Below are positions 23,120 through 51,237 of a stretch of DNA of 64,000 nt, in pieces (position 1 is the stretch's first letter; every line of letters starts with the position of its first letter). The translations under genes were made by a program, and so were the position numbers. The stretch is from an uncultured Bartonella sp. (lineage in GTDB: Bacteria > Pseudomonadota > Alphaproteobacteria > Rhizobiales > Rhizobiaceae). The DNA is taken from positions 248,001 to 312,000 of the forward strand of contig NZ_CALYPR010000003.1 of the NCBI RefSeq assembly GCF_945277285.1, written 5' to 3'. The notes beneath the pieces are model-generated. The model was not told where the DNA came from, ran no database searches, and saw nothing but the letters and a program-made list of their open reading frames with translations.

Positions 23120-23125
23120 AAATTT

Positions 23126-27537: not shown

Positions 27538-27574
27538 AAAAAAGCCCGCTTCAGATCCAGATAAAGCCGGGCTT
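27538..27574 (-). terminator. Rho-independent terminator, apparently the original prfB terminator
   Basis: Read on the minus strand, AAGCCCG pairs with CGGGCTT, with CTT/AAG extending the stem across a one-base bulge, a 12-base loop and a following T-run. It lies 30 bases downstream of the stop codon of the partial prfB copy, the position expected for the terminator of prfB. The intact prfB at 50.1 kb has no comparable structure downstream. Confidence 0.82.
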
Positions 27575-27603
27575 CTATGGTGTTGGAGAAGACAGTGGAT
27601 GTG

Positions 27604-28067
27604 TTATGTTACATCTTCCACATGTTCAACTCCGCCTTTGATGCGTTGCGCAAGCGCGGCTTCCATAAATGCATCAATATCTCCGTCAAACACAGCTTGC
27701 GGGTCGGTATTTTCAACTCCGGTACGCAAATCTTTTACCAGCTGATATGGTTGCAAAACATAGGAACGTATCTGATGCCCCCAACCTATTTCTGTTTTTG
27801 AAGCCTCAAGTGCATTTGCTTCGTTTTCACGCCTTTTTAATTCTTCTTCATAAAGACGCGCTCTCAACATTGCCCAAGCGGTCGCACGGTTTTTATGTTG
27901 TGATCTCTCAGCTTGACATTGGACAACAATGCCGGTTTTCAGGTGTGTAATGCGAACCGCAGAATCCGTTGTATTAATATGTTGCCCACCAGCACCCGAT
28001 GCACGATAGGTATCAATGCGAACGTCAGATTCTGAAACATCAACCTCGATATTGTCGTCAATGACCG
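27604..28067 (-). pseudogene. Partial duplicate of the 3' end of prfB (release factor 2)
   Basis: 464 bases that align without gaps to 50109-50572, the last 154 codons of the intact prfB. It contains the GGQ loop region ([19 protein letters not shown]) through the C-terminus ([10 protein letters not shown]), but has no N-terminal domain and no start for a functional factor. Only five mismatches are visible (27605, 27607, 27631, 27678, 27690), all in the distal 87 bases; 27691-28067 is identical. Two mismatches change residues (Leu to Phe and Leu to Ile). The stop is TAA here and TGA in the intact gene. The similarity ends abruptly at 28067. Confidence 0.95.
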
Positions 28068-28700
28068 CTTTTCCTATATAAAGTTAATCGTGTAATTATC
28101 TGTCGTTATGTGTATTTTGAAACAATATACTATTATCCAGATATATTCCTTACGCTGTACTAACCACATTATTAAATATAATATATTTTTAATGAAATAT
28201 GCTACCCTATTGAAAATCAATATAAACACTGTTAAACTAATATAGAACGGATACATATAAAAGATATAATATTTCAAATATATTATAGATAATACATACA
28301 ATATACATAAAATATAAATACGAAATGAAAAATTTTAAAGAACAAAATTAAATACATATTGAAAAATTAAAATAGCATCTTTTCAATTTACGAAACTTTC
28401 CGTTCTCTGACGTCAATTTTAATTATTGAATTTAAACTTCGCACACCTAATAAATTGATAAAGTCTGAAATGTGTTTTTTCTCTCAGTATTGTTAACACA
28501 TTAACAATCTTTTCCACAACTTAATCAACTTTGATTTAAATATATAAATAAATAAATTCAATAGGTTAGTTTTTTAATTAAAAAATATTCAGGTACAATT
28601 TTCCGATTTTTCAAACTCGTATGTGATTTTGGGTTATAAAATTAAACAGCATTAGAATATGTGCTCATTTTATCAAAAGCAAATTCAACCGGTTTTGTTT
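28068..28700. other. Very AT-rich left end of the island
   Basis: About 630 bases immediately after the prfB repeat, extremely rich in A and T and in ATAT-type repeats, without a gene I can support. The sharp change of composition at 28068 marks the repeat boundary. Confidence 0.5.
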
Positions 28701-28991
28701 ATGTCCTATTTACGTGCTTTGCTAATGAGTTTAATTGCACCTTGTTTAATATTAACGGGATGCACTACATCAGAGGTCGGAGCTGCGAAATGGGCCGTAG
28801 GCGGCGCAGCAGTTGGGGCAGCTGGCGGCGCTCTATTCGGACATCATGAAAAAGCGATCTATGCCAGTGCTGCTACAGGTGCAGTTGCCGGGGGTTTAGT
28901 AGGTTATATACGCAATAAAGATGAAACCCGCTATTGTAGATTTTATGATAAGGACGGTTTTCCTTACGACGCACCTTGTAACAAACCTTGA
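28701..28991 (+). CDS. Small glycine-zipper lipoprotein
   Basis: A 96-residue protein with a lipoprotein signal: MSYLRALLMSLIAPCLILTGC, lipobox LTGC with the lipidated Cys at residue 21. A glycine-zipper follows (AAKWAVGGAAVGAAGGALFGHH, then SAATGAVAGGLVGYI), as in the rickettsial 17-kDa antigen and related outer-membrane lipoproteins. The C-terminal tail has two Cys (RYCRFYDKDGFPYDAPCNKP). The ATG at 28701 is chosen because it starts the signal peptide. It is the first gene inside the island, about 530 bases ahead of tssB; a link to the T6SS is unproven. Confidence 0.8.
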   Translation: MSYLRALLMSLIAPCLILTGCTTSEVGAAKWAVGGAAVGAAGGALFGHHEKAIYASAATGAVAGGLVGYIRNKDETRYCRFYDKDGFPYDAPCNKP

Positions 28992-29520
28992 TTAATCCCA
29001 CTGTTTAACAACAGTCCGTAAGTTTGAAAAATCCTTTTCAATTTTTTATTGGAACATTCAATTTATAAAAATTTAAGTTATTATTCAAATATATATCAAA
29101 AATTAATTAACTGGCTTAATATTTTTGAGTTTATATAACATCTAAATTATTTGGTTTTCTAAAAAATAATAAAAATATATTTGACAAACCCATTTTATAC
29201 AACTAACAGTCAGTTAATTAAATAATAGTTTATGGAAGAAATGTGATGGTACTTTTTGATAAAAACGTTATTTTTCGTTTTTTTGTAAAGGAGTTTATAT
29301 TTTTTGATTTAAAACAATTTTTGATATTATTTGATTCAAATCAATAATATTATATAATTAAATAATCTATTGTGTAAATACAAGGTATTGCGTATCAAGA
29401 TATTATTTTATATTTAATTTTTATAAAAAATTACCAATACGAATGATAATATACCTTATTTACGTGAGGATGTATTTGATTTTTCTGTCATTATCAGTGG
29501 CTAACGAATTGGAGAAAAAT
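28992..29520. other. AT-rich leader of the T6SS operon
   Basis: About 530 bases, strikingly AT-rich, which should hold the operon promoter. A TTGACA hexamer at 29181-29186 is a possible -35 element, but the -10 at the right distance is weak. I did not find a GG-N10-GC sigma-54 promoter here. A longer frame reaching 29443 is not needed for TssB. Confidence 0.4.
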
Positions 29521-30033
29521 ATGTCTAAAGGATCTCGAGAAGGATCAGTTGCACCTAAAGAACGCATTAATATTAAATATATACCAGCTACGGGTGGACA
29601 ACAGGAGGAGAAGGAACTTCCCCTGCGTATGATGTTCGTCGGTGATTTTACGGGTAGAGATGATCCAACGTTAGTCGAGGAAAGAAAAGTTGTTTCGGTA
29701 GATAAGAATACTTTTGCAAATGTAATGGAACAGCAAAATATTTCTCTTAATTTAACAGTTCCGAACACGTTGACCGAAAACAAAGATGATGAACTAAAAG
29801 CAAACCTAAAGATATCTTCGCTGGATGACTTTTCGCCTGACTCCGTTGCAAAGCAGATTCCTGAAACACGGAAATTATTAGAACTGCGGGATGCGCTTAA
29901 CGCCTTGAAAGGGCCTCTCGGCAATATTCCTTCTTTCAGACACGCCATTCAAAGCATCATTGAGGATCCGACACTGAGGGATGAAATCGTCAGAGAGTTA
30001 GCAGCATACGAAAAAGCTGAAAAATCGCATTAA
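29521..30033 (+). CDS. tssB: T6SS contractile sheath small subunit TssB (VipA)
   Basis: Small sheath protein (170 residues) which assembles with TssC into the contractile tube. The start at 29521 (MSKGSREGSVAPKERINIKY) is preceded by TTGGAGAAAA and fits TssB length. The core sequence ELPLRMMFVGDFTGRDD and the C-terminal LRDALNALKGPLGNIPSFRHAI are characteristic. An in-frame upstream start at 29443 would add a hydrophobic leader that is not expected. First gene of the T6SS operon, with tssC 39 bases downstream. Confidence 0.93.
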   Translation: MSKGSREGSVAPKERINIKYIPATGGQQEEKELPLRMMFVGDFTGRDDPTLVEERKVVSVDKNTFANVMEQQNISLNLTVPNTLTENKDDELKANLKISSLDDFSPDSVAKQIPETRKLLELRDALNALKGPLGNIPSFRHAIQSIIEDPTLRDEIVRELAAYEKAEKSH

Positions 30034-30072
30034 TTTGCTGTCTGAAAAGCTCGATAAAAAAGGAGAATGGCC

Positions 30073-31590
30073 ATGGCCGTGGCTAAGTCGAAAGAAGTAT
30101 CTGTTCAAAATTCAAAAAATGTTGCTTCCTCTTCTATTCTTGATACTCTACTCGAAAAAACTACTTTCACCAAAGAACAAGAAGAATATAGCGTCGCAAA
30201 AACTGGTTTAGAACTATTTATTGGTGATTTGTTAAAAAATAAAAAACCTGACGAAAAAGTAAATAAAAAAACGATTGACCGCATGATTGCAGAACTTGAT
30301 CGTAAAATTAGTCTACAAATTGATCAAGTTATTCATAATAAACAGTTTCAAGAAGTTGAAGCCGCTTGGAGAGGTTTGAAATTCGTCGTCGAGCGAACAG
30401 ATTTTCGTGAAAATATCAAATTTGATGTTTTGTCCGTAAAAAAAGATGAACTTCTTGACGATTTTGACCAGGCTCCTGAAGTTGTTCAATCGGGTCTTTA
30501 TAAACACGTATATTCTGCTCATTATGGTCAGTTTGGCGGTGAGCCAGTAGGTGCAATTATTGCGAATTACGAATTTGGACCTTCAACACCAGATATTAGA
30601 TTACTGCAATATGTTTCGTCAGTCGGAGCCATGGCACACGCACCTTTTATAGCAGGTGCTTCACCACAAATGTATGGAGTAAAAAGCAATCTACAGCTTC
30701 CCGCGGTCAAAGAACTTTCTTCTGTTTATGAGAGCCCCCGTTTTCGTAAATGGAATAGTTTACGCGAAACAGAAGATGCTCGTTATATAGGTTTGACTGG
30801 GCCAAGATTTTTGTTGCGTCAGCCATATGATCCGCTCGACAATCCGGTCCGTTCGTTTGTTTATACGGAAGACGTAGCCTCTGAACACGAAAATTATCTA
30901 TGGGGCAATACAGCTTTTGCGTTCGCAACCAGACTTACCGAAAGTTTTGCTAAATATCGTTTCTGTGCCAATATTATAGGCCCACAAAGCGGTGGTTCTG
31001 TTTATGACCTTCCAGTTCACGTCTATGAAGCTATGGGCCAGCTTGATGCCAAAATTCCGACTGAAGTACTAATCACCGATCGTCGTGAGCTGGAGATGGC
31101 TGACCAAGGTTTCATTGCGCTTACAATGCGGAAAGGTTCAGACAATGCGGCTTTTTTCTCAGCTAATAGCATACAGATGCCCAAACGTTTCCCGAATACT
31201 AAAGAGGGAAAAATAGCCGAAACGAATTACAAACTTGGCACTCAACTCCCTTATATGATGATTGTTAATCGTCTTGCACACTACCTCAAAGTGCTGCAGC
31301 GTGAACAACTAGGCTCGTGGAAAGAACGTGAGGATTTAGAGCGTGAGCTCAATATTTGGTTGAAGCAATATGTCGCCGATCAAGAGAACCCTCCGTCAGA
31401 TGTTCGTAGCAAACGTCCTCTTCGTGCAGCAAGTGTAGAGGTTTCTGATGTTGCTGGCGATCCTGGTTGGTATCAGGTTGTACTGAAGGTTCGTCCACAT
31501 TTCAAATATATGGGTGCAAATTTCGAGCTTTCTCTTGTTGGCAAGTTAGATAAGAAAGATGCAACCGTCATTACAGACGCGATGGATTAA
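30073..31590 (+). CDS. tssC: T6SS contractile sheath large subunit TssC (VipB)
   Basis: Large sheath subunit (505 residues) with the full TssC fold: LDRKISLQIDQVIHNKQFQEVEAAWRGL near residue 85, EFGPSTPDIRLLQYVSSVGAMAHAPF, YIGLTGPRFLLRQPYDP and the C-terminal YQVVLKVRPHFKYMGANFELSLVGKLDKK. Two starts are adjacent. AGGAG at 30061-30065 is only one base before the ATG at 30067 but seven bases before the ATG at 30073, so I take the latter (MAVAKSKEV). The interaction with TssB and recycling by ClpV are known for the family. Confidence 0.95.
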   Translation: MAVAKSKEVSVQNSKNVASSSILDTLLEKTTFTKEQEEYSVAKTGLELFIGDLLKNKKPDEKVNKKTIDRMIAELDRKISLQIDQVIHNKQFQEVEAAWRGLKFVVERTDFRENIKFDVLSVKKDELLDDFDQAPEVVQSGLYKHVYSAHYGQFGGEPVGAIIANYEFGPSTPDIRLLQYVSSVGAMAHAPFIAGASPQMYGVKSNLQLPAVKELSSVYESPRFRKWNSLRETEDARYIGLTGPRFLLRQPYDPLDNPVRSFVYTEDVASEHENYLWGNTAFAFATRLTESFAKYRFCANIIGPQSGGSVYDLPVHVYEAMGQLDAKIPTEVLITDRRELEMADQGFIALTMRKGSDNAAFFSANSIQMPKRFPNTKEGKIAETNYKLGTQLPYMMIVNRLAHYLKVLQREQLGSWKEREDLERELNIWLKQYVADQENPPSDVRSKRPLRAASVEVSDVAGDPGWYQVVLKVRPHFKYMGANFELSLVGKLDKKDATVITDAMD

Positions 31591-31592
31591 CA

Positions 31593-32078
31593 ATGAAAAT
31601 TTACTCATCGCCATCAAAGACAAGAAACCAAGCAGTCAAGAACGTTGTACTTGATTCAAAAACGCGGTTTGCTTCAGGGAGCCTTATTGATCGTTTAATG
31701 TTGGATGATGAAGACATTGAAATATCACGGCACCACTTTGTCGTTGATGGCGTTTTGAGCTCTATAAAACGAAATCTCGGTCGGACGTTGAATATCCACG
31801 CAGGCAGCGCACAGTCTAATACAGAAATTGGAATACCCGATTTCAATCATAGTACAGTAAACTCGCTTGATGTTTCAACCCACATTATCGACGCTATTCG
31901 TAGGTGCATTGAAGTTGCGGAACCAAGATTGAAGAATATTGAGGTGAAATCAATCTCGGATATGCATTCAGCTATGGATCTGGATTTTTTAATCACAGCG
32001 GATCTTAGCGTTTCTTCTGAAGACGAGCAAATACGTATCGATATTGCCATGAGGGATGGCCACTTTTTCCCTCATTGA
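31593..32078 (+). CDS. tssE: T6SS baseplate protein TssE (gp25-like)
   Basis: Baseplate wedge component (161 residues) related to phage T4 gp25. SLIDRLMLDD at the N-terminus, SIKRNLGRTLNIHAGSA and IGIPDFNHST in the middle, and a C-terminal beta region are the usual TssE landmarks. It starts two bases after the tssC stop. The same transcript continues into tssF after 58 bases. Confidence 0.88.
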   Translation: MKIYSSPSKTRNQAVKNVVLDSKTRFASGSLIDRLMLDDEDIEISRHHFVVDGVLSSIKRNLGRTLNIHAGSAQSNTEIGIPDFNHSTVNSLDVSTHIIDAIRRCIEVAEPRLKNIEVKSISDMHSAMDLDFLITADLSVSSEDEQIRIDIAMRDGHFFPH

Positions 32079-32136
32079 GCTCTGCATATCGTTGACTGAA
32101 ATACTGAGTATAAAACATAGATCTTTGGCTTTTAAA

Positions 32137-33900
32137 ATGAACCGATTGTTTCAGGATGAATTGAGTTATTTAAGGGATACAGGTCGTGAATTTGCACATC
32201 TAAATCCCAAATTGGCTCGTTATTTAGCCGATAAAAGTACTGACCCTGATGTTGAACGGCTTTTAGAAGGTTTTGCGTTTTTAACAAGCCGTGTACGTGA
32301 GAAAATTGACGATGAGATGTCCGAATTTACTACTTCAGTTATCAAATTGTTGTGGCCAAATTTCCTTCGTCCTTTTCCATCAACAACGATGATGAAGTTC
32401 ACACCAATAGACCGTTCAATTACAGAAAGGCAAATTTTACCAAAAGGTACCGTTATCCTCTCAAATCCCATCCGAGACCAGCAATGTGTTTTTCAGACCG
32501 TAGCCGACTGCACAATATATCCATTAGAAATTGCCCACATAGGTTTGGAAAGATCGCGTGATAGCGCGCGGATTAAAATTTTTTTCAATACTCTTTCCGG
32601 TCTTCCACTTAGTCAAACCGGTATAAAAGATCTCCGTTTGACGCTTTGTGGGGATATGACGGTCCGCCAAACGCTTTATTTGTGGATCGGTCGTTATCTT
32701 GAAAAAGCCACGATATTCTATGCCGATGGTAAAACAGTAAATGTGCCATTAAAAGATATTCAACCGATTGGATTCGATAATTCAGAAGCTGTTTTATCTC
32801 AGCAAACAGCTGCTTTTTCAGGACATAGGTTGTTACAAGAATATTTTGTATTTCCTGATAAATTCTATGGTTACGATCTTGTTCATCTATCAAAATTTTT
32901 CGATGGACACGACGAAACTGAATTTTCTTTAGTGTTAGAATTTGAACGTTCAATTCCGCCTGAAGTGCGGTTGAAAACGGACAATATTCGGCTTCATTGT
33001 ATGCCAGCAGTCAACCTTTTCGAGACTGATGCTGAACCGCTTATTATTAAACACACAAAAAATAGCTACCGAATACGGCCTCTTGGATTTGACACTGATC
33101 ATTTCGAGATTTTTTCAATTGATAGTGTGAAAGGTCAGCATGCTTCTAACAATAATGAGCAATTTCTGGTCGAACGTGATTACCCATCATTTGAATCGTT
33201 TAATCATGAAATTGGTGAGGACCAGATGGGCGAACAGATTTTTTTCTACAGCCATGCACAGAAATCGTTAAGCCATAAGGGCTTCGATTATGATATGTCC
33301 TTTATTCTACACAACGCTGAGCCGGCTGTTCCAAACGAAGAAACAATTTCCATTGATATTACTTGTTTCAATCGGGATCTTTGCAGTGAACTCGCGGTAG
33401 GTGATGTTTGTATTCGTTCAGAAACAGCGCCTGTATTTGTAGAATATAGTAATATTACGCGACCAACAGAACCAGTTTATCCACCACTTGATGGTACTTT
33501 GAATTGGAATTTGATTTCTAATCTCTCGCTGAACTATATGTCATTGCTAAGTCATGATGCATTGGCAGCAATGCTTTCTATTTATGATTATCAGAGTTTA
33601 ACAAACCGCCAAGCAGAGCGGGCAGCTAAACAGCGTATCGGAGGGATAGTTGATTTAAAGACTACTCCGACTGATATCGTTTTTAATGGGCTACCAATAC
33701 GTGGCTTAAAATCAATTATGAAAATGAACGAAAGTGCATTTCAAACCGAAGGAGAAATGTACCTATTCGCAGCAATTCTCGCTGAGTTTTTCACTCTTTA
33801 TGCAACTGTCAATTCTTTTCATGTGCTGGAAGTTCATGGAATGGAAAATGGAGAGATTTATAAATGGCCTGCAAAGATCGGACGTCAGCCGCTGATCTAA
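32137..33900 (+). CDS. tssF: T6SS baseplate protein TssF
   Basis: Baseplate wedge protein (587 residues) that with TssG and TssE surrounds the TssK-linked hub. The start at 32137 (MNRLFQDELSYLRDTGREFAHLNPKLARYLA) is the near-universal TssF opening; the frame is open 81 bases further up but with an unlike sequence, overlapping the end of tssE. No strong Shine-Dalgarno sequence precedes it. VERLLEGFAFLTSRVREKIDDE and LWPNFLRPFPS are further family signatures. Its end overlaps the start of tssG by 37 bases. Confidence 0.93.
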   Translation: MNRLFQDELSYLRDTGREFAHLNPKLARYLADKSTDPDVERLLEGFAFLTSRVREKIDDEMSEFTTSVIKLLWPNFLRPFPSTTMMKFTPIDRSITERQILPKGTVILSNPIRDQQCVFQTVADCTIYPLEIAHIGLERSRDSARIKIFFNTLSGLPLSQTGIKDLRLTLCGDMTVRQTLYLWIGRYLEKATIFYADGKTVNVPLKDIQPIGFDNSEAVLSQQTAAFSGHRLLQEYFVFPDKFYGYDLVHLSKFFDGHDETEFSLVLEFERSIPPEVRLKTDNIRLHCMPAVNLFETDAEPLIIKHTKNSYRIRPLGFDTDHFEIFSIDSVKGQHASNNNEQFLVERDYPSFESFNHEIGEDQMGEQIFFYSHAQKSLSHKGFDYDMSFILHNAEPAVPNEETISIDITCFNRDLCSELAVGDVCIRSETAPVFVEYSNITRPTEPVYPPLDGTLNWNLISNLSLNYMSLLSHDALAAMLSIYDYQSLTNRQAERAAKQRIGGIVDLKTTPTDIVFNGLPIRGLKSIMKMNESAFQTEGEMYLFAAILAEFFTLYATVNSFHVLEVHGMENGEIYKWPAKIGRQPLI

Positions 33901-34889
33901 GTGGCTTTTTAAACAAAAATGCACGATATTTCTCAGCTTTCGAAATGATCGAATTGATTGAGGATATACTTGATAACGGAAAAGAAGTTGGCACACATGA
34001 ACTAGCCTCTGATGAAAAAATATTTTTCTCGGTTGATTCAAGCTTGAGTTTTCCTACTTCAGACGTCGTTCAGGTCAAGCAAATTCCACCGGCAGAATTA
34101 AAAAAGTGCCCACGCTATAATATTGAAGTTACGTTTATGGGACTTCATGGCTCCGGAACAGTATTACCATCTTATTATGCCGAACAGATTGCCCAATATG
34201 ATCCGGATGACTCTACGACAAAAGACTTCTTTGACTTTTTTCATAATCGTCTTATCGGGCTTTTTTACCGTGCTTGGCGCAAGCCACGCTATTCAAGAAG
34301 ATACCGTCCTCATGGAGTTGATAAATTCTCTAACTGGATATTCTCAATGTTCGGTTTGGGAAATCCAGAATCCAGAAATTTTACCAATGTTTATTGGCCT
34401 AGGCTGTTATGCTTTGCAGGACTTTTATCTACCCGCAACCGTTCACCTGCTCTTTTTTCAACGGTTATTACACGGGCGTTTAATCTTGATACGGTTTCAA
34501 TTGAAGAGTGGACGAAAAGAAAGGTAAAAATATCGGCTAGTCAGCTTACACGGATTGGCAAAAAAAATTCTCTCCTTGGACAGAACTTTATTCTCGGTCA
34601 AAACACTCTTGATATTCAAGGAAAAATTCGCGTCGTTATTCGTAATCTCGATTTTTCTCGGTTTCAAGATTTTTTGCCACATGGAAAAGATTTTAAAAGT
34701 TTACGTGGACTCGTTGAATTCATGTTTCGAGACCAACTCGGTTACGACTTAAAACTTGGATTAAAACCTCTACAAGCATATCCGATTACACTCGACAAAT
34801 CATGTCCCTGCCGGCTCGGTTGGTCATCATTTCTTGGAAACAGCCTAACCCACGAAATACGCGATGTTATCATTAAGGTTAGGAGTTAA
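33864..34889 (+). CDS. tssG: T6SS baseplate protein TssG
   Basis: Baseplate protein (341 residues) partnering TssF. The family landmarks FFDFFHNRLIGLFYRAWRKPRY near residue 115 and LRGLVEFMFRDQLGYDLKL near the end are clear, as is the VTFMGLHGSGTVLPSYYAEQI stretch. The start at 33864 gives a normal length and an overlap with tssF, as is common. The fha gene follows after one base. Confidence 0.9.
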   Translation: MACKDRTSAADLSGFLNKNARYFSAFEMIELIEDILDNGKEVGTHELASDEKIFFSVDSSLSFPTSDVVQVKQIPPAELKKCPRYNIEVTFMGLHGSGTVLPSYYAEQIAQYDPDDSTTKDFFDFFHNRLIGLFYRAWRKPRYSRRYRPHGVDKFSNWIFSMFGLGNPESRNFTNVYWPRLLCFAGLLSTRNRSPALFSTVITRAFNLDTVSIEEWTKRKVKISASQLTRIGKKNSLLGQNFILGQNTLDIQGKIRVVIRNLDFSRFQDFLPHGKDFKSLRGLVEFMFRDQLGYDLKLGLKPLQAYPITLDKSCPCRLGWSSFLGNSLTHEIRDVIIKVRS

Positions 34890-34890
34890 A

Positions 34891-36411
34891 ATGCATTTAC
34901 GCTTGGTAATTAATAATACCGATGACCTTAGTGGTGGCTATAGTGCTGTCAAAGATTTTGACATCAAAGGTGGGACTATTGGCACAGCAGACGAAAGCAC
35001 ATGGCAAATAGTAGATCGAAATGGAACAGTAGCCTCCACTCATGTAGTCGTAAGTGTTGTTGATAACCAGTTCTGTTTTGAAACTCCGGTTAGCAATAGC
35101 CTTCACATCAATCACAGTAAATCACCCATTCCGACTAGACAAAAAGTGCAAATTACCGATGGCGACGTTATCCAAATAGGTAAATTTGAAATTACCGCCT
35201 TCGTTGATCTTTCGCCTGATGAAATGGATACTTTAGAAAAACGTGGGGAGAGATGGTCGAAACGCTTTGTTTCAATTGGATCACTCGTTGATCATAATTA
35301 TGAAGAAAATATTACGGCTCAAAACTTCTTTGAAAGCAAGACGTTACAGAAGCCGGGAAAATTCTACATGCGCGAGACTGCAAAGAGAGAACAAGAGGTC
35401 GATCCTATCAATCTGATCGATGACTCTTGGAAAAGTAGGTCGACAAATGAAGTTGACCCGCTACGCCTAATCAATAGCGATAGAACAGCGGAGAAAGATG
35501 AAATGAAGAGTAAATTGGGTGATATTATCAATGTTGATCCTGAAGATGAAACAACGGTCAATATACCCGATGATCTTCAGCCCGGATCTGCTTATATGGA
35601 TATTCCAAAAGCAAAAACAGTAAAAATAAAAACTAAAAAACAAGCGGACGTTTCAAAACAAGAGCCTAACAATTCTGAAGAGAATATCGATGCCTATCTT
35701 GAGAATATTGCCAATAACGCGCGTGTTGCAGACGATGTTACAAAGAAAGAGGTTCGGGATGTCGCTATCCGTGACGATTATTTCGAGGAAGTCGAGCTTG
35801 ATAAGAATGAAGACGGAGAACTGATAGACCACGTGCTTTTACGTCCATTATGCATTGCAATGGGATTACCTATTCAAAAAATGACAGTTCCGAACGCCAA
35901 TCGATTAATGCGCGATATTGGCGAAGCTGTTAAGGCTACGGTAGCCGGCCTAATCGAAGCTCATAAGAGAGAACTTTCAGATAAAAGCCATTTATCGGAA
36001 ACACATCTTCACGCTATCGAAGATAACCCTTTGCGGCTTGACAAATCTACAGATGATGTCATTCGCGATCTTTTTCTTATTAATAGTCCTGTCCATCTTT
36101 CAGCGTCGGCAGCTATTGCAGAAAGTCTTGAACTTTTACAATATCATGAGAAAGCTAGCGAGATAGCCGCTGATGAAGCCCTTGATGCCGTTTTACGTGC
36201 ACTGGGACCATTTCAACTTGCCAAGAGATTTAAAAAATATAAAGGCCACGCGCCTCGTGCCGGCGACCTCGATGCGTGGCATTGGAAAATGTATCAATAT
36301 TACTACAATGAAATACGTTCCGAAAAACAGGGGGGACTAGCTCGTATGTTTTGGGAGGTCTTCCGACAAGTTTATGACCGCGAAATGCGCGAACAATCAT
36401 TGGAAGGCTAA
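34891..36411 (+). CDS. T6SS FHA-domain protein (Fha / TagH)
   Basis: Scaffold or regulatory protein (506 residues). The N-terminal FHA domain (about residues 1-110) has RLVINN, GGTIGTADESTWQI and a following Ser/His region; it would bind a phosphothreonine peptide. The C-terminal half is the TagH-type domain with LLRPLCIAMGLP, DNPLRLDKS (Asn379) and PAGDLDAWHWKMYQYYY-like sequence. Between them is an acidic, probably disordered linker with two similar motifs, EVDPINLIDDS (from residue 169) and EVDPLRLINSD (from 187). A Thr kinase/phosphatase pair (PpkA/PppA) is not present nearby. Confidence 0.88.
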   Translation: MHLRLVINNTDDLSGGYSAVKDFDIKGGTIGTADESTWQIVDRNGTVASTHVVVSVVDNQFCFETPVSNSLHINHSKSPIPTRQKVQITDGDVIQIGKFEITAFVDLSPDEMDTLEKRGERWSKRFVSIGSLVDHNYEENITAQNFFESKTLQKPGKFYMRETAKREQEVDPINLIDDSWKSRSTNEVDPLRLINSDRTAEKDEMKSKLGDIINVDPEDETTVNIPDDLQPGSAYMDIPKAKTVKIKTKKQADVSKQEPNNSEENIDAYLENIANNARVADDVTKKEVRDVAIRDDYFEEVELDKNEDGELIDHVLLRPLCIAMGLPIQKMTVPNANRLMRDIGEAVKATVAGLIEAHKRELSDKSHLSETHLHAIEDNPLRLDKSTDDVIRDLFLINSPVHLSASAAIAESLELLQYHEKASEIAADEALDAVLRALGPFQLAKRFKKYKGHAPRAGDLDAWHWKMYQYYYNEIRSEKQGGLARMFWEVFRQVYDREMREQSLEG

Positions 36412-36416
36412 GAGTG

Positions 36417-36962
36417 ATGTCGGTCAAATCAATCCTATTGTGCACTGTGTTGGGATTGACCTCATTAACAGTAACTGGATGTTCGCCGTCACAAAGCATC
36501 CAAGCACTGGATAAAATGGGGCAGATCATGAAAAACCCCAATACTCCCGTAGGCCAACAGACTGAGGTAAAACCCTCGACCGCGCAGGTTATTATTTACG
36601 CTGATAGCAATGCAAACACTTCTGAATATGGCGATGCACCAGTCGATGTGTGGTTGTTTCAATTAAAAGATTCAGATGAACTCAATAATGTTGATTATTA
36701 CTCACTTTCTGAGGATCCCAAGAAAGCGCTGCCGTCCTCTTACATCAGGCACATAACGAAACAAGTCAATCCTGGCGAATCCGCCGTCATTACTCCGTTT
36801 AAATTTACCGACGATACTAATTTTATTGGCGTTGTCGTGGCCTATGGAAATCTTGAAAAAGTTACTTGGAAAGCAACAGAAAAAGTAAACCCCAGCGGTG
36901 AACAATATAAAATTTTAATACCGGTAACTCGCAAAGGTGTTTCGATCCAAGTTCATCGATAA
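36417..36962 (+). CDS. tssJ: T6SS outer-membrane lipoprotein TssJ
   Basis: Membrane-complex lipoprotein that anchors TssM to the outer membrane (about 181 residues). The signal peptide SVKSILLCTVLGLTSLTVTGC carries a lipobox (VTGC). The mature domain has the transthyretin-like beta pattern seen in SciN/TssJ: QVIIYADSNANTS, PVDVWLFQLKDSDELNNVDYYSL, IGVVVAYGNLEKVTWKA. An in-frame GTG three bases earlier could also start translation. It lies between fha and tssK as in V. cholerae VAS. Confidence 0.9.
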   Translation: MSVKSILLCTVLGLTSLTVTGCSPSQSIQALDKMGQIMKNPNTPVGQQTEVKPSTAQVIIYADSNANTSEYGDAPVDVWLFQLKDSDELNNVDYYSLSEDPKKALPSSYIRHITKQVNPGESAVITPFKFTDDTNFIGVVVAYGNLEKVTWKATEKVNPSGEQYKILIPVTRKGVSIQVHR

Positions 36963-36973
36963 TAGAGTATAAA

Positions 36974-39183: not shown

Positions 39184-39187
39184 GATC

Positions 39188-43431: not shown

Positions 43432-44224
43432 TTTACGGCTTTTAGATTTCTTTCTCATAATCATGGGACTATTCATGAGTATTGGCTATGCCGAAGATGC
43501 TTTAAGTCTTGAAAAAGCGACCGAATGCAGCAAAATTGGTGATCGTGTCCAACGGCTCTATTGTTTCGACACATTATTTAATAGCCCGGTTCCTACCTCA
43601 TCTGCAAAAAAAATTAGCGAAAAACCTATTGAACAACCTGACGGCCCACTAAAAAGCCTAGCAAGTTTACTTGAACGGCAGAGGACGGCAGATGACACAA
43701 ATTGGGTTTTACGAATGCGTCCATGGCATGAAACAACACTTCTGACTATTGATGATTTCAATCGAATTTTGACAAATACCGCTAATCGACATTCTGTTAA
43801 CGAAAAAGAATCAGAACAAAGTTTGTCTCCACAGACTGTAGACGTTTTTCTAACAACTCGTGAAGTAAAGATCCCTGACAACATTAATTTTTTAAAAGAA
43901 GCAATTATGATGCTGAGTTGCGAAAACGATATCACCACACTTGCTGTACTACTTCCCAAGCCAATTACCACATTACAGGCTAATATCACTCTTTCGTCTG
44001 GAAATGGGAGCATTTTTAAGCTTCATTGGCGGGACGTTGAAAACGGAGGGGTTATTATTGCAGGGCGTGGCCTCGAAAGTATCGACACCATCAAAACGAT
44101 CGCAAATTATCCCCGTGTTCAACTCCAAGTGAACTATCCCGATGATGGCCCACGCGTGTTTATTTTTGACATGAATGATTTAGGAAACAAGCTAAAGCCT
44201 TTGCGCTTGGCATGTCATTGGTAG
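43415..44224 (+). CDS. T6SS-associated protein VasI / TagO
   Basis: Exported accessory protein (269 residues) of the T6SS locus. A signal peptide is visible (LLDFFLIIMGLFMSIGYA). The mature start contains EKATECSKIGDRVQRLYCFDTLF, the two-Cys sequence usual in VasI/TagO, and the rest is a beta-rich domain including DRVQ and IMMLSCENDITTLAVLLPKPI. I place the start at 43415 (MRLWYNL), overlapping the activator gene by 17 bases; the frame is open seven codons further up. TagO proteins are thought to aid assembly of the envelope complex. Confidence 0.8.
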   Translation: MRLWYNLRLLDFFLIIMGLFMSIGYAEDALSLEKATECSKIGDRVQRLYCFDTLFNSPVPTSSAKKISEKPIEQPDGPLKSLASLLERQRTADDTNWVLRMRPWHETTLLTIDDFNRILTNTANRHSVNEKESEQSLSPQTVDVFLTTREVKIPDNINFLKEAIMMLSCENDITTLAVLLPKPITTLQANITLSSGNGSIFKLHWRDVENGGVIIAGRGLESIDTIKTIANYPRVQLQVNYPDDGPRVFIFDMNDLGNKLKPLRLACHW

Positions 44225-44236
44225 GAGACGTTTAAC

Positions 44237-47200
44237 ATGCAACAGATTTCAGAGGCAACATCAGTTATTAACCGTATCCAATATGGCATACGCACAATAG
44301 GCCGTGGCCTAAAAAGCGGATTTTTCCTAAGTACAGTTTTGCTCATCCTTTTATGTGTGATTATCTGGTATTGGGGGCCTGCCTTTAAATACTTAGAATA
44401 TGCTCCTTTTCGACCTATTGCAAACAGGATCATTGCAATTGGTGTTTTAGTAGTATTGTGGGGAATTAATAATTACTTTCTAGCCCGAGCGGCAATACGT
44501 AAAAAACCCAAAGCTATGGTTGAAAACGAGTTGAAGCCACGCGATCCCCTAGAAGAACTAATCACAATTTTGCAGTTGTCTTTTCGATCTACAATGAAAA
44601 TTATCAAAGATAAATGGACCGGTAAAGATCACTCAAACCGTACTCTCTATGCAATGCCTTGGTATATTATTCTAGGACCATCTCAATCAGGAAAAACATC
44701 TTTAGTTCTCCAATCCGAATTGAGCTTTCCGCTTGCACATGAACTTAAAGAGAGCCACGTCAATAAAACAATTGCACAAGAATTACCTCAATACTGGGTT
44801 ACGAGGGAAAGTGTTCTTTTCGATATTCCCGGTACTTGGCTGAATATGAAGAAACCGATCTCAGTCGATCTTTTTGACGATGATGAATTTGATCCCAATA
44901 TTCCTGTTATAAAGACGCCAGCGAAGGAAGGCCGAAGAAAGCTTTGGAACGCATTTACTGATCTTCTCAACGATGTTCGCTCACGTCGACCAATCAACGG
45001 CGTCATCATTACCTATAGTATTTTAGACCTCATACGTATGAGCAATGAGCAACGTGCAAATGAAGCAATGAATATTCATGCACGTTTAGTTGAAATAGCG
45101 GAAAAGCTTGGAACTCGTTTTACTGTTAATATAGTTCTGACAAAACTTGATAAACTTTCCGGTTTTAAAGAATACTTTTCAAAACTTTCAAAGCTAGAAC
45201 GCCAAGAGCCTTTTGGCTTTTCTTTTCCGATCTATAGCGAGATTGATGCTGATAAATGGGCTATTGACTTTGAAAAAAAATTCTCTGCTTTCATTGACGT
45301 TGCCAATAACGATATTATTGATCGCGTTGATAGCTGCCATGAAACGGAAATTCGTAAAAGCATGTATACGTTTTTGCGTGAATTTACCGCTACAGGTCAA
45401 ATTGTATGTGATTTTTTTAAGAAAGCTTTATTATCTGATCGTTTTTCGACGCCCCCTCTTGTTCGCGGTATTTACTATGTTTCTACGACGCAGGAAGGTG
45501 CACCATTTAATGCACTTCTTACCAAGATTTCAAATGATTACCATATGGTACCACCCGTTACGCCGGCTTATTCCGGTAATCCTACTCCCTATTTCAACGG
45601 TAAACTTTTTACTGATGTTATTTTTAAGGAAGCTGGACTTGCAGGAGACAATCATAAAGTCGAACGTCATAAACGCCTCGTTTTGCGCAGTTCTATTTTA
45701 GCCAGCGTTCTTATACTTCTCGGATTCGGTTTTTTGTTAAATGAAACGATGGAAGATAATACCACACGTGCTGAAAATGTACTTTCAAAAAGTAAAGCAT
45801 TTATTGATTTACCTAGAGATGTCCAAATTAGTGGCTCTGAAGCACAATTTCTTCCTGCTTTAGATGCTATCTCCTCTGCGAATAACGAATATCCTGGTTG
45901 GGAAGACAAAAGTGACATACGGCGATATACCGCTCTTTATCAAGGGCGCCGTGTCGGCCCGGAAGTTCGTAAGGCCTACGAAAAACTTTTACAAGAACGG
46001 TTTTTACCCAGCATATCAAACAAAATCGCTAATGAAATAGTGCGATTAGGCCAGAATCCCGAGACATATAACAGCGATGAAAGATTGGATGCTTTGCGTG
46101 TCTACCTCCTGTTAGGTGATATCCAGAGACGTAAAGAACTTGACGATAGTGATGATACCATGTCCCTCGGTAAAGCAGCTGTATTGGCATGGTTGAAAAA
46201 CAAATGGCAGCAACGCTTTGAAGGGCAAGATGATATTCAGTCGGATCTAAAAAAGCATATTGAATATGCACTTAATACAAATCGGATTGCTGCACCGATA
46301 GATGATAAACTTGTTGCCGATACCCAAGCAGCATTACGTGAAGTACCACGCGATGTGCGACTCTACCGGGGGTTAAAAGCTCTTGCTGCTCGTCAGGTAC
46401 CCAATGGTTTAAGCTTACGCAATATGGTCGGGCCAAGTTTTGATATAGTGTTTAAACAGAACGGAGATGAAGTAGCCAACAACCAAAACGACGTTGTCGT
46501 TCCGTATTTCTATACAAAACGCGGTTTTCATGAATTTTTTATTCCCAAAAACAAAGATCTATCAATTATTGCTGTTGAAGATGCATGGGTAACAGGAGAA
46601 CGTGAGCGTGTCCGTTATTCTGAAGAAGATTTACAGGCTTTTATGGAAAAAATCCGTTATTATTACGCGACAGATTACATCAATTTCTGGCATAATATGA
46701 TAGACAATCTTAATATTGTTGATTTCCGTAATATTGATGATGCTGTTCGGGTTTTGTCCGAAATTGATGGCCCATCCAATCCTTTTGGGCGATTACTTAA
46801 TGTTATCAAATCAGAAACTGAAATTTATCCTCTAGAACCTGCTAAAACAGATAAAGAACAATCACAAACTGAAATTGCATTTGATCGAAACAGGGAACAT
46901 GGTTTGCGTATTGCCCGGGCTTTTTCTGATCTTTCAGCATTGGTTACAGCCAAAGAAGGAGAAAAACAGCCTCTTGAAGAAATGCTTGGCACGATGACTA
47001 GCTTGGAAAGCTATCTAAGTAATATCCAGAGCGGTCAACAATCAAGCAAGCCAATCGCACTTGAAAAAGCGCAAGAGCGCGCGAAATTGCAAGGCGATGA
47101 CCCGATCTTTATCGTTCGCCGAACGGGAGGCAATTTGCCGAAACCATTTGATAAGTATTTCAACCAAATAGCAGACAACAGCTGGAAAGTTATATTAGAT

Positions 47201-47896
47201 GCTGCAAAAATTGATTTACAAATGGTTTGGCAAAATAATGTATATCGCACTTTTAATGTGGAATTGGCTGGGCGGTACCCATTCAATGTGGTAAGTAGTG
47301 AAGATGTTACCTTAGACGAATTTCAACACTTTTTTGGACCTAAGGGCGAATTTGATAATTTTTTCAACGATCATCTTAAAAACTTTATAAATCCAAACAA
47401 TGGCACGCCAATTCTGATTGATGGTCAAAGTTTGAGTGTTAGTGATGAATTCATTGAACAAATTAAAAAAATTCGAGCGATCCGTAATATATTTTTCAAT
47501 GCTGATGGTGTACCAACACTTCGTTATACGATCGAACCAGTTGGCATGAGCGGCAATATAAGTCGTTCTGTGTTGAACATTGAAGGACAATTGATACCCT
47601 ATAGTCATGGCCCAACTCGTCCAATAGCTATTCTTTGGCCTAATGCTTTATCAAGCAAACAAGATATTAGCCAAGTTTCCACAGCGCAAGGCGCGAGCAT
47701 CAGTTATTCTGGTCTGTGGTCGAGCTTTAGACTGTTTGACCGTGCTACTATCACAAATAATACACCGGATACTGCTGATGTTGTTTTTAATCTCAACGGA
47801 GGACAGATAAAATATCGCATTAAAATGTCAGCTACAGATAAAAATCCGTTTGTATTGAAACCTCTGACATCAATGAAACTTCCTGAACAGTTGTGA
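44237..47896 (+). CDS. tssM: T6SS inner-membrane protein TssM (IcmF family)
   Basis: Largest component of the envelope complex (1219 residues). Two transmembrane segments lie near residues 30-50 and 58-78, a third near residue 475-492 (SSILASVLILLGFGFLL). Between them is the cytoplasmic NTPase-like domain with Walker A GPSQSGKTS near residue 147 and SVLFDIPGTWLN. The large periplasmic part includes AARQVPNGLSLRNMVGP and ends in a beta domain (WSSFRLFDRATI) that contacts TssJ. It overlaps the next gene slightly. Confidence 0.94.
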   Translation: MQQISEATSVINRIQYGIRTIGRGLKSGFFLSTVLLILLCVIIWYWGPAFKYLEYAPFRPIANRIIAIGVLVVLWGINNYFLARAAIRKKPKAMVENELKPRDPLEELITILQLSFRSTMKIIKDKWTGKDHSNRTLYAMPWYIILGPSQSGKTSLVLQSELSFPLAHELKESHVNKTIAQELPQYWVTRESVLFDIPGTWLNMKKPISVDLFDDDEFDPNIPVIKTPAKEGRRKLWNAFTDLLNDVRSRRPINGVIITYSILDLIRMSNEQRANEAMNIHARLVEIAEKLGTRFTVNIVLTKLDKLSGFKEYFSKLSKLERQEPFGFSFPIYSEIDADKWAIDFEKKFSAFIDVANNDIIDRVDSCHETEIRKSMYTFLREFTATGQIVCDFFKKALLSDRFSTPPLVRGIYYVSTTQEGAPFNALLTKISNDYHMVPPVTPAYSGNPTPYFNGKLFTDVIFKEAGLAGDNHKVERHKRLVLRSSILASVLILLGFGFLLNETMEDNTTRAENVLSKSKAFIDLPRDVQISGSEAQFLPALDAISSANNEYPGWEDKSDIRRYTALYQGRRVGPEVRKAYEKLLQERFLPSISNKIANEIVRLGQNPETYNSDERLDALRVYLLLGDIQRRKELDDSDDTMSLGKAAVLAWLKNKWQQRFEGQDDIQSDLKKHIEYALNTNRIAAPIDDKLVADTQAALREVPRDVRLYRGLKALAARQVPNGLSLRNMVGPSFDIVFKQNGDEVANNQNDVVVPYFYTKRGFHEFFIPKNKDLSIIAVEDAWVTGERERVRYSEEDLQAFMEKIRYYYATDYINFWHNMIDNLNIVDFRNIDDAVRVLSEIDGPSNPFGRLLNVIKSETEIYPLEPAKTDKEQSQTEIAFDRNREHGLRIARAFSDLSALVTAKEGEKQPLEEMLGTMTSLESYLSNIQSGQQSSKPIALEKAQERAKLQGDDPIFIVRRTGGNLPKPFDKYFNQIADNSWKVILDAAKIDLQMVWQNNVYRTFNVELAGRYPFNVVSSEDVTLDEFQHFFGPKGEFDNFFNDHLKNFINPNNGTPILIDGQSLSVSDEFIEQIKKIRAIRNIFFNADGVPTLRYTIEPVGMSGNISRSVLNIEGQLIPYSHGPTRPIAILWPNALSSKQDISQVSTAQGASISYSGLWSSFRLFDRATITNNTPDTADVVFNLNGGQIKYRIKMSATDKNPFVLKPLTSMKLPEQL

Positions 47897-47898
47897 AA

Positions 47899-49422
47899 AT
47901 GATGGATAATTGTGATCAAAATACATTTACAGGTGTAGATTGGATTGACCGCAATCCTTTGTTCGTTGCTGTCGGCTCTTCTCTACAAAAACCTGAACAG
48001 CAAGGTGTAGACCTCATAGAAAACGAACTTTTTGATGAGGTCGATACTGAACTGATGAAACGAGGTACATTGAATCACTCGTCAATCCGTTGGGATTGGG
48101 TCTGTGAACAATGTGCTAAACTTCTTTCGCAAGAATCGAAAGATTTTCGATTACTTCTATATATTTTACAAAGTTTGCCTAACGTTAAAAATTACGGTTC
48201 ACCATTAACATTAGGAACTGTTTTAACATCACGGTTTGTCGGTATTTGGGGTGATGTTGCCTATCCGGTAAAAAAGAAACGTCTTCCTATTCTCCGTAAA
48301 ATTGTTGATGCTTTAGAAACACTTATAGAGCATTCAAAAAAATTCAATTTAGAACAAGAAAATATAGAACTTTCTGCACGTTCTTTGAGACAATGTGTTG
48401 ATTTTTTCAAAAATATTGATCGAAATTTTGAACAGCAGCTCTTTTTAATGGCAAACCGTATCGAGGCTGCAGCCATTCCTGATGAAAACGATGGAAGTCA
48501 GTCACTTGAGAAAATCATCAAAGAGCCATTTGTACCAAAACCTATACTAGAAATTAAAGAAAATGAAGGTAATTCCCAACAAACATTGGAGCTTCATCCA
48601 GAGAATTTAGTTCTGAATGAAAAGAGTGAACGAGCCTTAAAACAAAGTCTAACTATTGTAGCCGATTTTATCCTTCATATGGATATAGAAAATCCACTTT
48701 CTTACAGGCTAAGACGTTTTGCGACCTGGTATGGTATTACAAATGCACCAGAACAAAGAAGAAAGGACGATTTAAAGACGGTAATCCTTCCGGTGTCGAC
48801 TAATGCTCTAGATGAATATAGGACAGCTGCTGAACGTGGACAAACTGATTTTGATATCGCATATAAGTTAGAAAAAAGCTGCCATAACCAACCTTTCTGG
48901 TTAGAAGGGCAATATCTTTCTTACAAGTTAGCAGTAATCTGTAACCGTCAATCGGCCGCCGAAGCAATTTTGGAGACGACCTACAGTTTCGTTAGCAAAA
49001 CCGAATGGCTTAAACGTTTGCAATTTGCTGATGGCTCACCATTTATGCCAGAAGCAGTTAAAACATGGATAGATACCTATGGCAGAGCATCAACAACCGG
49101 AGCTTCTCTTTTGCGTGTAGAAAATGAAATGATTGGCGGCGAGATGCAAGCAATCGCGCTCAAAGCACGAGAAAAAGCAAATCATGGTAATACTGATGAA
49201 GCTATCCGCATATTGGAGTCTGCAAAACCTAATCAAGACACTCCTCGTTCAAAAACGCTATGGGAAATGCTTATGTTAGAATGTATAAGTGATTGGGGAA
49301 TGAAAAATCTTGTTTCTACACAAGCAAAGCGATTAAAAAAAGATATTGAAAGTATGATGGTGAAAGACTATGAACCTGACATTATTGACAGGATATCTCG
49401 TTTAGAGATACTCACAAAATAA
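47899..49422 (+). CDS. tssA: T6SS protein TssA (VCA0119/VasJ-like)
   Basis: TssA-type cap or priming protein (507 residues). The N-terminal ImpA-like domain has VDWIDRNPLF and SIRWDWVCEQCAKLLSQESKDFRLLLYIL; the C-terminal region (STTGASLLRVENEMIGGEMQAIALKAREKANHGNTDEAI) matches the VasJ branch. Three start codons lie together (GTG 47893, ATG 47899, ATG 47902); I take 47899. It is the last T6SS gene of the block. In V. cholerae the VasJ gene precedes vasK; here it follows, so it could also correspond to VasL. Confidence 0.8.
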   Translation: MMDNCDQNTFTGVDWIDRNPLFVAVGSSLQKPEQQGVDLIENELFDEVDTELMKRGTLNHSSIRWDWVCEQCAKLLSQESKDFRLLLYILQSLPNVKNYGSPLTLGTVLTSRFVGIWGDVAYPVKKKRLPILRKIVDALETLIEHSKKFNLEQENIELSARSLRQCVDFFKNIDRNFEQQLFLMANRIEAAAIPDENDGSQSLEKIIKEPFVPKPILEIKENEGNSQQTLELHPENLVLNEKSERALKQSLTIVADFILHMDIENPLSYRLRRFATWYGITNAPEQRRKDDLKTVILPVSTNALDEYRTAAERGQTDFDIAYKLEKSCHNQPFWLEGQYLSYKLAVICNRQSAAEAILETTYSFVSKTEWLKRLQFADGSPFMPEAVKTWIDTYGRASTTGASLLRVENEMIGGEMQAIALKAREKANHGNTDEAIRILESAKPNQDTPRSKTLWEMLMLECISDWGMKNLVSTQAKRLKKDIESMMVKDYEPDIIDRISRLEILTK

Positions 49423-50108
49423 CGAAAATTTCCAGTTAGAATTAATAGTAGAACTCATTGTCTGAGTTTATGATTAGTTGTTTATGAGTAAAAAACACTC
49501 AATATGTTCTTACGGCGACTCATAAATCAAGGAATTTATGATATTCATTCGATACTTGAATGTTGCCAAATATACGACATAAACAAAATTCCTTTTAATT
49601 ATTTCGCTTTATAAAAAGCGAGCAATAATATGAGTGTTAACAATAGTGATATTTTGGTCAGCGTCCCTCACTTATCCATAAAATCAAGGTTTATAACCTC
49701 TTATAATATCCAAATAGCAAAGGAGCATTTAAAAACGTTATTTAGGAACGCACTGATTACTATTACTAAATACATTTTTTGTTGCTTTACGCACGTTTTG
49801 ATAAGAATCAACGTTATTCGGACTGTACTTAGCAATAAATAACCAATTTTATATTATCCGAGTCACTTTATCAGCTCAATAAAAAAAGTCATACGCCGGT
49901 CATTTTTCCGCTTTTAAACAAATTCGCTTATCGGCACCACTATTCATCAAATTGATCAAACTAAAATTAACCAAAAAACTTAAAAACAACATGTTTTTAA
50001 GTTTATTTCTGATAAAATGACAATGATTCCAACCAAAAAGATAACAATTAACCCATTTTATAGCTTATAAAAGCTATTAAGTGGCCATTGGTAATTAAAG
50101 AAAAACAA
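49423..50108. other. Right end of the island, no confident gene
   Basis: About 690 AT-rich bases between tssA and prfB. A 70-codon frame at 49630-49842 (MSVNNSDILVSVPHLS) has no clear family and only a weak ribosome binding site. The region contains a long AT-rich inverted repeat (annotated separately) and an ATAGCTT/AAGCTAT hairpin near 50060-50080. Confidence 0.4.
49976..50004. repeat. 29-base AT-rich inverted repeat downstream of the T6SS operon
   Basis: A 13-base arm AAACTTAAAAACA is followed by ACA and the perfect complement TGTTTTTAAGTTT. It sits about 550 bases after tssA and 105 bases before prfB. It may be a weak bidirectional terminator or a feature of the island end. There are no flanking GC-rich stems and no long T-run. 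Confidence 0.6.
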
Positions 50109-51237
50109 TCAGGTTACATCTTCCACATGTTCAACACCGCCTTTGATGCGTTGCGCAAGCGCGGCTTCCATAAATGCATCAAGATCTCCGTCAAGCACAG
50201 CTTGCGGGTCGGTATTTTCAACTCCGGTACGCAAATCTTTTACCAGCTGATATGGTTGCAAAACATAGGAACGTATCTGATGCCCCCAACCTATTTCTGT
50301 TTTTGAAGCCTCAAGTGCATTTGCTTCGTTTTCACGCCTTTTTAATTCTTCTTCATAAAGACGCGCTCTCAACATTGCCCAAGCGGTCGCACGGTTTTTA
50401 TGTTGTGATCTCTCAGCTTGACATTGGACAACAATGCCGGTTTTCAGGTGTGTAATGCGAACCGCAGAATCCGTTGTATTAATATGTTGCCCACCAGCAC
50501 CCGATGCACGATAGGTATCAATGCGAACGTCAGATTCTGAAACATCAACCTCGATATTGTCGTCAATGACCGGATAAACCCAGACGCTGGCAAAAGACGT
50601 ATGTCGCCGTGCATTCGAATCATATGGCGAAATACGAACCAGCCGATGCACGCCCGATTCGGTCTTCAACAGACCGTAAGCGTTATATCCTTTAATCAGA
50701 ATCGTTGCCGATTTTATACCCGCTTCTTCGCCATCATGAACTTCCAGCAACTCCACCTTCATGGAGTGCTTTTCTGCCCATCGCGTATACATACGAAGAA
50801 GCATAGATGCCCAATCCTGACTTTCGGTACCGCCAGCGCCAGAATGAATTTCTAGGTAGGTATCATTGGCATCGACTTCACCCGATAGCAGCATTTCAAT
50901 CTGGCGTTTGTCAAGTTCGCCTTTTAGCGAATAGATTGCATTCTCCGCATCCTTGATAATCGTTTCATCGCCTTCCTCTTCACCCATAGCAATAAGTTCA
51001 ACATTATCATTGAGTGCTTGCGTCAAATGTTTGATATTATTGACCCCGTCATCAAGACGTTGGCGCTCGCGCATCAATTCCTGCGCTTTTTCAGCATTCT
51101 CCCATAAGGTAGGATCTTCCGCTCTTTCATTGAGATATTCCAGACGTTTTATCGACTGATCCCAGTCAAAGATGCCTCCTCAGCAAGCCGATAGCCTGCT
51201 TGATTTCTTCGACCAAAGTTTCGATTTCTGCTCGCAT
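50109..51237 (-). CDS. prfB: Peptide chain release factor 2, expressed by +1 programmed frameshift
   Basis: Release factor for UGA and UAA stops (about 375 residues after shifting). The first 23 codons from the ATG at 51237 (MRAEIETLVEEIK...) end in CTT-TGA, with the UGA at 51168-51166. A +1 shift reads CTTT-GAC and joins the long frame (DWDQSIKRLEYL). The catalytic GGQ is in [12 protein letters not shown]. The tripeptide usually SPF reads SPY in ISPYDSNARRH. The 3' 464 bases are repeated at 27604. It is in line with mrcA and the amidase, all on the minus strand. Confidence 0.95.
51166..51186 (-). promoter_or_regulatory. prfB +1 programmed frameshift site
   Basis: Reading the minus strand: an internal Shine-Dalgarno-like AGGAGG, then CAT, then CTT-TGA-C. 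This is the same arrangement as the established E. coli prfB frameshift (SD-like element, CUU slippery codon, UGA). Low release factor 2 prolongs the pause at UGA and raises shifting, so the gene regulates itself. The total span 50109-51237 is 1129 bases, one base over a multiple of three, as needed for +1. Confidence 0.93.

Follow-up and report, generated by a model that had tools for sequence, protein, structure and literature searches.

A window of 64,000 nucleotides from an uncultured Bartonella sp. (assembly GCF_945277285.1, contig NZ_CALYPR010000003.1, positions 248,001 to 312,000) carries the core of a type VI secretion system (T6SS), a bacterial killing machine, between the housekeeping gene prfB and a second, partial copy of the prfB 3' end. 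We propose that this fragment and the T6SS core form a breakpoint of a chromosomal inversion, and that the core was joined to prfB by prfB-anchored recombination, after which the spare 3' end drifted; the proposal is tentative, with a probability of about 0.45. The fragment points to a recombination scar, not to an ordinary integrated island. The genome holding the window (G000; the window is G000:C3:248001-312000) is assembled to 2.45 Mb in 9 contigs, with 100% completeness. Among named records its prfB is closest to those of Bartonella apis PEB0122 and of an uncultured Bartonella (92% protein identity), and judging by sequence the host bacterium is a Bartonella related to a honeybee gut species.

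The prfB repeat and the T6SS core

The features on which the argument turns are the following:

27604..28067, reverse strand: truncated duplicate of the prfB 3' end that lacks a start; it covers some 154 final codons, including the GGQ stretch, and has a TAA stop of its own (sequence comparison)
50109..50572, reverse strand: the prfB segment that is repeated at 27604-28067 (sequence comparison)
50109..51237, reverse strand: intact prfB (translation, with a +1 frameshift close to the start)
29443..34889, forward strand: tssB, tssC, tssE, tssF, tssG (Pfam)
34864..39183, forward strand: tagH (FHA), tssJ, tssK, tssL (Pfam)
39188..44224, forward strand: clpV/tssH, sigma-54 activator, VasI-type protein (Pfam)
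44237..49422, forward strand: tssM, tssA (Pfam)
28659..28991, forward strand: glycine-zipper-like small protein upstream of tssB (two Pfam families, both below cut-off)
about 27538..27575, reverse strand: G+C-rich hairpin with a U run, behind the fragment (folding against shuffles)
about 49976..50004, reverse strand: A+T-rich hairpin with U's, behind intact prfB (folding against shuffles)

A sequence-only reading of the window had described a 464-base copy of the prfB 3' end, in the same orientation and 22.5 kb from the intact gene. The two segments are indeed identical at 459 of 464 positions, on the same strand, at an offset of 22,505 bases. The mismatches (27605, 27607, 27631, 27678 and 27690) all fall in the distal 87 bases (27604-27690), past which the remaining 377 bases are identical; under uniform substitution such clustering has P ~2e-4 in a post hoc test, which agrees with the earlier estimate of about 2 in 10,000. 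The frameshift site of the intact gene is presumably CTTTGAC.

The duplication is peculiar to this genome. We searched 71 Bartonella genomes (G000 and 70 others) and found exactly two prfB places in G000, the intact gene and the partial copy, and a single prfB match per genome in the remaining 70. Some of these have additional matches, which cover only 26-173 query bases, most of them in the GGQ stretch common to release factors; we take them to be prfA. The fragment was seen in no relative lacking the T6SS (0/70 genomes); its presence in such a relative is what the sequence-only reading had named as telling against insertion.

The copy also differs in its end: it closes with ACA TAA, like the prfB of G012, and the intact gene with ACC TGA, like those of G007, G020 and G017 (ACC TAA is found in G008, G006 and L039, which is B. 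apis, and ACT TGA in L040). The partial copy encodes Phe where all 118 other loci having the residue (118/118) encode Leu. This comparison covers 123 loci, not all independent, of which two are without the residue and three have Phe, namely the fragment itself (L001) and two that by their range are G000 stretches containing it. Elsewhere Ile or Val are also seen at the second of the changed residues. The Phe at an otherwise constant Leu suggests that drift has acted on the spare copy; gene conversion could equally have kept the 377 bases alike.

Between the prfB copies lie eleven core components (tssA, B, C, E, F, G, H, J, K, L and M), so that the earlier statement that the whole T6SS lies there holds for these genes. 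It does not hold for hcp, vgrG and PAAR: none of the three occurs in the interval, and they stand some 100 kb left of the core (G000:C3:172.1-175.5 kb), at the other junction of the inversion described below. The hcp there is the sole hcp of G000 and the vgrG its sole intact vgrG. All 13 proteins TssA-TssM are therefore encoded in the genome, 11 in the window and Hcp (TssD) and VgrG (TssI) at the other junction, and the two blocks are probably one T6SS. Relatives of the glycine-zipper-like protein adjoin the core in G012 and G017.

Between a zinc-finger gene and the hcp-vgrG-PAAR block lies decayed DNA with a piece of vgrG (C3:169.5-171.5 kb, L143/L144), which suggests that the block formerly held a second vgrG. 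By resemblance this DNA may be insertion-sequence remnants; Pfam on ten pieces of the junctions gave nothing near its cut-off.

It had further been claimed that a GC-rich terminator follows the left copy and is lacking behind the intact gene. A hairpin does stand behind the fragment and folds moderately better than its shuffles (z -1.7; 10/200 fold equally well), but the intact gene is not plainly without one, as its A+T-rich stretch has z -2.5, with 1/200 shuffles as good. A simple terminator scan gives no site at either place. For the fragment terminator no relative was found, the best matches outside the locus being 20-24 bases; spacer comparisons gave none better than their own shuffles, the sole clear match being the start of hcp itself, and the prfB-orf73 spacers of relatives align solely within close groups. 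No recognisable relatives of the terminator and spacers of the G000 locus were thus traced.

An inversion with foreign DNA at both junctions

We compared the neighbours of prfB in 15 genomes out of the 70 other genus members (G007, G020, G008, G012, G006, G017, G354, G355, G335, G360, G361, G333, G003, G035 and G013). In 15/15 prfB is followed by bcp, usually with the small orf73 between and yhdP after; within the DNA fetched, bcp is present in 15/15, yhdP in 13/15 and orf73 in 12/15. The same adjacency of prfB and bcp is found in four more named species (L041, L042, L045, L051), and ppk is next to prfB in 0/15. The sequence-only reading had expected relatives to show an uninterrupted prfB, then the terminator and ppk. 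Instead, ppk lies 22-333 kb from prfB in the seven genomes that have both on one contig: about 100 kb in G020, 116 kb in G007, 231 kb in G003, 333 kb in G035, 201 kb in G013, and 22 kb on the other side in G008 and G006. The differing distances indicate that the layout varies among relatives while both adjacencies, prfB-bcp and ppk-zinc finger, persist.

The second adjacency holds in 8/9 genomes examined, the exception being G012, in which other genes stand upstream of ppk in place of the zinc-finger gene (L159, G012:C72, 1-5934); presumably they encode a molybdopterin-type oxidoreductase and cytochrome c-like proteins. The ppk joint has thus been altered in another lineage too. In G008:C2 and G006:C2, ppk stands upstream of prfB at a distance of only some 22 kb, which suggests that the region was rearranged there as well, with both adjacencies kept.

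In G000 both adjacencies are broken, and bcp-yhdP-tyrS lie at C3:176.4-182.2 kb, about 100 kb from the fragment. We aligned 162 kb of G000:C3 to 160 kb of one genome, G020 (a single contig), and obtained three collinear blocks: C3:150.0-169.4 kb corresponds to G020 1353-1334 kb, reversed; C3:176.5-273.4 kb to G020 1230-1333 kb, forward; and C3:298.1 kb onward to G020 1229.7 kb downward, reversed. These blocks imply that about 97 kb were inverted, one end being the gap between prfB and orf73 and the other that between ppk and the zinc-finger gene. That G000 has the derived order rests on the two conserved adjacencies. The inversion lies about the replication terminus: cumulative GC skew peaks within it, and the stretch turned round between the conserved adjacencies has the GC-skew switch inside it, as expected of a terminus-spanning inversion.

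Both junctions hold DNA without native counterpart. At the left junction this is 6.8 kb (C3:169,430-176,225, 0.28% of the genome); at the right one it is 24.7 kb, which holds the fragment and the T6SS core. Near the right breakpoint the window contains:

21605..25330, reverse strand: ppx and ppk, the native right end of the inverted segment (Pfam, block comparison)
25370..27603, no strand: right inversion junction, DNA without native counterpart between ppk and the fragment (comparison with relatives)
25891..26622, forward strand: accessory open reading frame of 243 amino acids in the right junction (no family)

It is because of the inversion that ppk lies beyond the fragment. The accessory reading frame has matches in 4/61 genomes (G000 included) and in two records of a plasmid collection (33% and 29%), one of which has no T6SS gene within 9 kb. 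Pfam identified no recombinase among the core proteins, the junction proteins at both breakpoints and ten junction pieces, and the core proteins scanned include no replication gene.

Several simple accounts of this layout were rejected. The inversion did not run through the prfB copies, which are direct, and no piece of prfB is present at the other junction. Nor did other common repeats mediate it, as the left junction and the two right stretches match over at most 14 bases (decayed repeats are possible). An inversion by staggered breaks would have left inverted copies, and was rejected by this reasoning as the source of the repeat. The fragment is not a displaced native 3' end beside native downstream DNA, since its neighbour ppk is there by inversion. 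Finally, a single inversion splitting a divergent island of the type seen in G017 was rejected as sole explanation by reasoning on the orientations, which do not fit.

A strict pattern gave no dif match. A weak dif-like candidate of 28 bases lies near the GC-skew switch (window 7725-7752), with 17/28 positions as in the E. coli motif. These 28 bases recur in G020 with one mismatch, on the opposite strand, and the adjoining stretch is about 3 kb longer in G020.

Possible origins of the repeat

Two routes might have brought the core behind prfB. In a one-ended event, one side of a linear DNA would have been joined by a homologous crossover in prfB and the other by an illegitimate joint within the gene, some 460 bases before its stop. 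Alternatively, a circle carrying a prfB 3' end would have been taken in by a single crossover. Either route would leave an intact prfB and, beyond the core, a surplus 3' end; this copy would then drift, the identical 377 bases being original or kept alike by gene conversion. If, in the one-ended case, the crossover lay no more than about 87 bases from the stop, the rest would be recipient sequence present twice, hence identical, and the last stretch alone would differ, as is seen. Had hcp-vgrG and the core been codirectional in the ancestor, one inversion breaking between them would give the present layout, whether the island was first at prfB or at ppk.

Several observations agree with such a history. 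A direct repeat of a host gene encloses cargo with prfB intact, in 1/71 genomes. The only hcp and the only intact vgrG sit in the other junction, just 0.28% of the genome; foreign DNA is found at both junctions, and the proteins scanned include no recombinase. The mismatch clustering and the copy's own stop fit a one-ended event with a crossover near the stop. The suggestion that the T6SS was inserted in prfB is to this extent borne out: T6SS DNA absent from most relatives stands directly behind prfB, with a spare 3' end beyond it in which drift is seen. The expected empty site, prfB followed by the terminator and ppk, is not seen in the relatives examined.

Other observations weigh against this proposal. 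The divergent order of G017 is not turned into that of G000 by one inversion. No donor in which prfB adjoins the core came to light: the plasmids fetched of strain HY761, which carry related T6SS genes, are without prfB, and the 31 plasmid-collection records that match the fragment do so at 60-80%, with no Bartonella among the best 20 of the 31. The Phe at a constant Leu means that some of the five mismatches may not stem from a donor. In HY761 each block has a replicon of its own, so a shared history of the two in G000 is uncertain. One-ended recombination was rare where it was measured in E. coli, according to an excerpt of that study (PMC3240628), although excerpts of another propose it for Vibrio T6SS arrays (PMC5361080). 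The recombination route, the shared history of the two blocks and any order of events are inferences.

The fragment sits at an inversion junction and copies DNA only 22.5 kb away, as it would if about 460 bases of prfB had been copied as filler DNA into the ppk-core joint during repair of the inversion or of a later break. This account involves no integration into prfB and needs no donor with the core beside that gene. We nevertheless consider it unlikely: the copy ends in an in-frame stop unlike that of its template, which by our reasoning a random cut would give about once in 20, and the position of tssA directly behind prfB is left unexplained. A repeated gene 3' end around cargo, with prfB intact, is also what a site-specific island would leave, if an integrase had inserted a T6SS element at the 3' end of prfB, the element had rebuilt the gene, and loss of the integrase and the inversion had followed. 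In essence this extends the sequence-only view by an inversion; a vgrG remnant near a phage-type integrase gene in G012 speaks in its favour. With no recombinase among the core proteins, junction proteins and junction pieces scanned, prfB as an integrase target is not supported. In addition, the repeat is as long as 464 bases, hcp-vgrG-PAAR lie outside it, bcp, the expected neighbour of a displaced 3' end, is about 100 kb away, and no paper title among the matches listed concerns prfB as an integration target. A site-specific origin is on these grounds improbable.

The least probable account, to which we attach very little weight, is an assembly artefact in which the assembler took a wrong path through the two copies and the core would in fact be a circle or belong elsewhere. 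The 377 identical bases permit two readings of the assembly graph, and differences confined to the vicinity of one unique flank could, by reasoning, reflect bubble removal. The assembly has only 9 contigs at 100% completeness, however, the lack of a replication gene among the core proteins scanned makes a free circle unlikely, and the inversion junctions would not be accounted for.

Related systems and comparable islands

Hcp was found in 2/71 Bartonella genomes (G000 and G017) and TssF in 3/37 (G000, G012 and G017). TssM has a match in 48/297 genomes of the order (G000 included, in a sample evidently without G012 and G017), with long matches outside G000 about 24-28% identical. The best TssM matches in the plasmid collection (70%; the next is 34%) are on 56-kb plasmids of two bat-faeces strains, Bartonella sp. 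HY761 and HY406 (NZ_CP104889.1, NZ_CP104895.1). TssC and TssK of these plasmids are 82% and 81% identical to those of G000, and on that of HY761 the gene order from tssB to tssA is the same. The HY761 core plasmid is without hcp or vgrG; the strain carries these on another plasmid, of 15 kb (NZ_CP104891.1; hcp 92%, vgrG 74%). HY761 is represented by its plasmids, its chromosome not being in that collection. Its core stands on a plasmid beside transport and phosphotransferase system (PTS)-type genes, without prfB, whereas the core of G000 is chromosomal and behind prfB. On the HY761 core plasmid the replication, RelE/ParE and ParA genes are doubled as mirror-image sets with the same protein accessions (L198, NZ_CP104889.1, 121-7085).

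Two further genomes, both about 85% complete and fragmented, have the core in the same order as G000 where it is seen, and unlike G000 they keep prfB-bcp. The prfB of G017 runs into contig ends. In that genome the core and hcp-vgrG adjoin each other in divergent orientation, at a site other than that of G000 and on a contig that shows no resemblance to the stretch of G020; G017 core DNA is 66-76% identical to that of G000, below its prfB and ppk (80-84%). In G012 the core DNA (77% over 6.7 kb) is near its prfB (80%) and ppk (79%), and the core stands beside cas9, which in G000 is on another contig. There the core lies about 2 kb from a cas9 in several pieces, and several tss genes are in pieces too (L126, G012:C58, 7202-11776), which could reflect decay or an error of assembly. 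About 0.5 kb separates the vgrG remnant of G012 from the phage-type integrase gene, next to a gene that we take to be metE-like (L173, G012:C85, 1779-3937). Together, the plasmid, G017, G012 and G000 contexts place the core in four settings in five Bartonella.

Excerpts of a survey of 198 bee-gut isolate genomes report no complete T6SS in Bartonella apis (PMC8125069), and none of the paper titles among the matches listed deals with a T6SS in this group of Bartonella or with islands that target prfB. Here a relative of B. apis carries all T6SS core genes, divided between the two junctions of an inversion. The locus offers a testable case of how a large killing machine may enter by way of a housekeeping gene, shift between plasmid and chromosome in members of one genus, and perhaps disappear once more through simple recombination. 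As a speculation against long odds, the Bartonella T6SS might be a two-part system, its core and its tip (hcp-vgrG) travelling as separate replicons and settling as a pair that reorganises the terminus; RecA could then still release the core as a 22.5-kb circle through the 377-base repeats, leaving a single whole prfB, and possession of the T6SS would be reversible in the population.

The anatomy of the locus resembles that of islands at gene 3' ends. Known targets include tRNA genes, trmE and prfC, and as in G000 the 3' end is repeated around the cargo while the host gene stays intact. G000 differs from such islands in that no recombinase was found, the repeat is long, no matching empty site was seen in the 15 relatives examined and part of the system lies outside the repeat. 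A gene 3'-end repeat around cargo therefore need not mean an integrase island. The anatomy would also fit homology-facilitated illegitimate recombination, for which no donor was found; in the excerpts of the studies that propose it for V. cholerae T6SS effector arrays (PMC5361080) and measure it in E. coli (PMC3240628), this process has one homologous anchor, displaced 3' ends downstream and no recombinase. The V. cholerae arrays, as described in the same excerpts (PMC5361080), consist of small effector-immunity modules, whereas in G000 a 22-kb core is anchored in a housekeeping gene.

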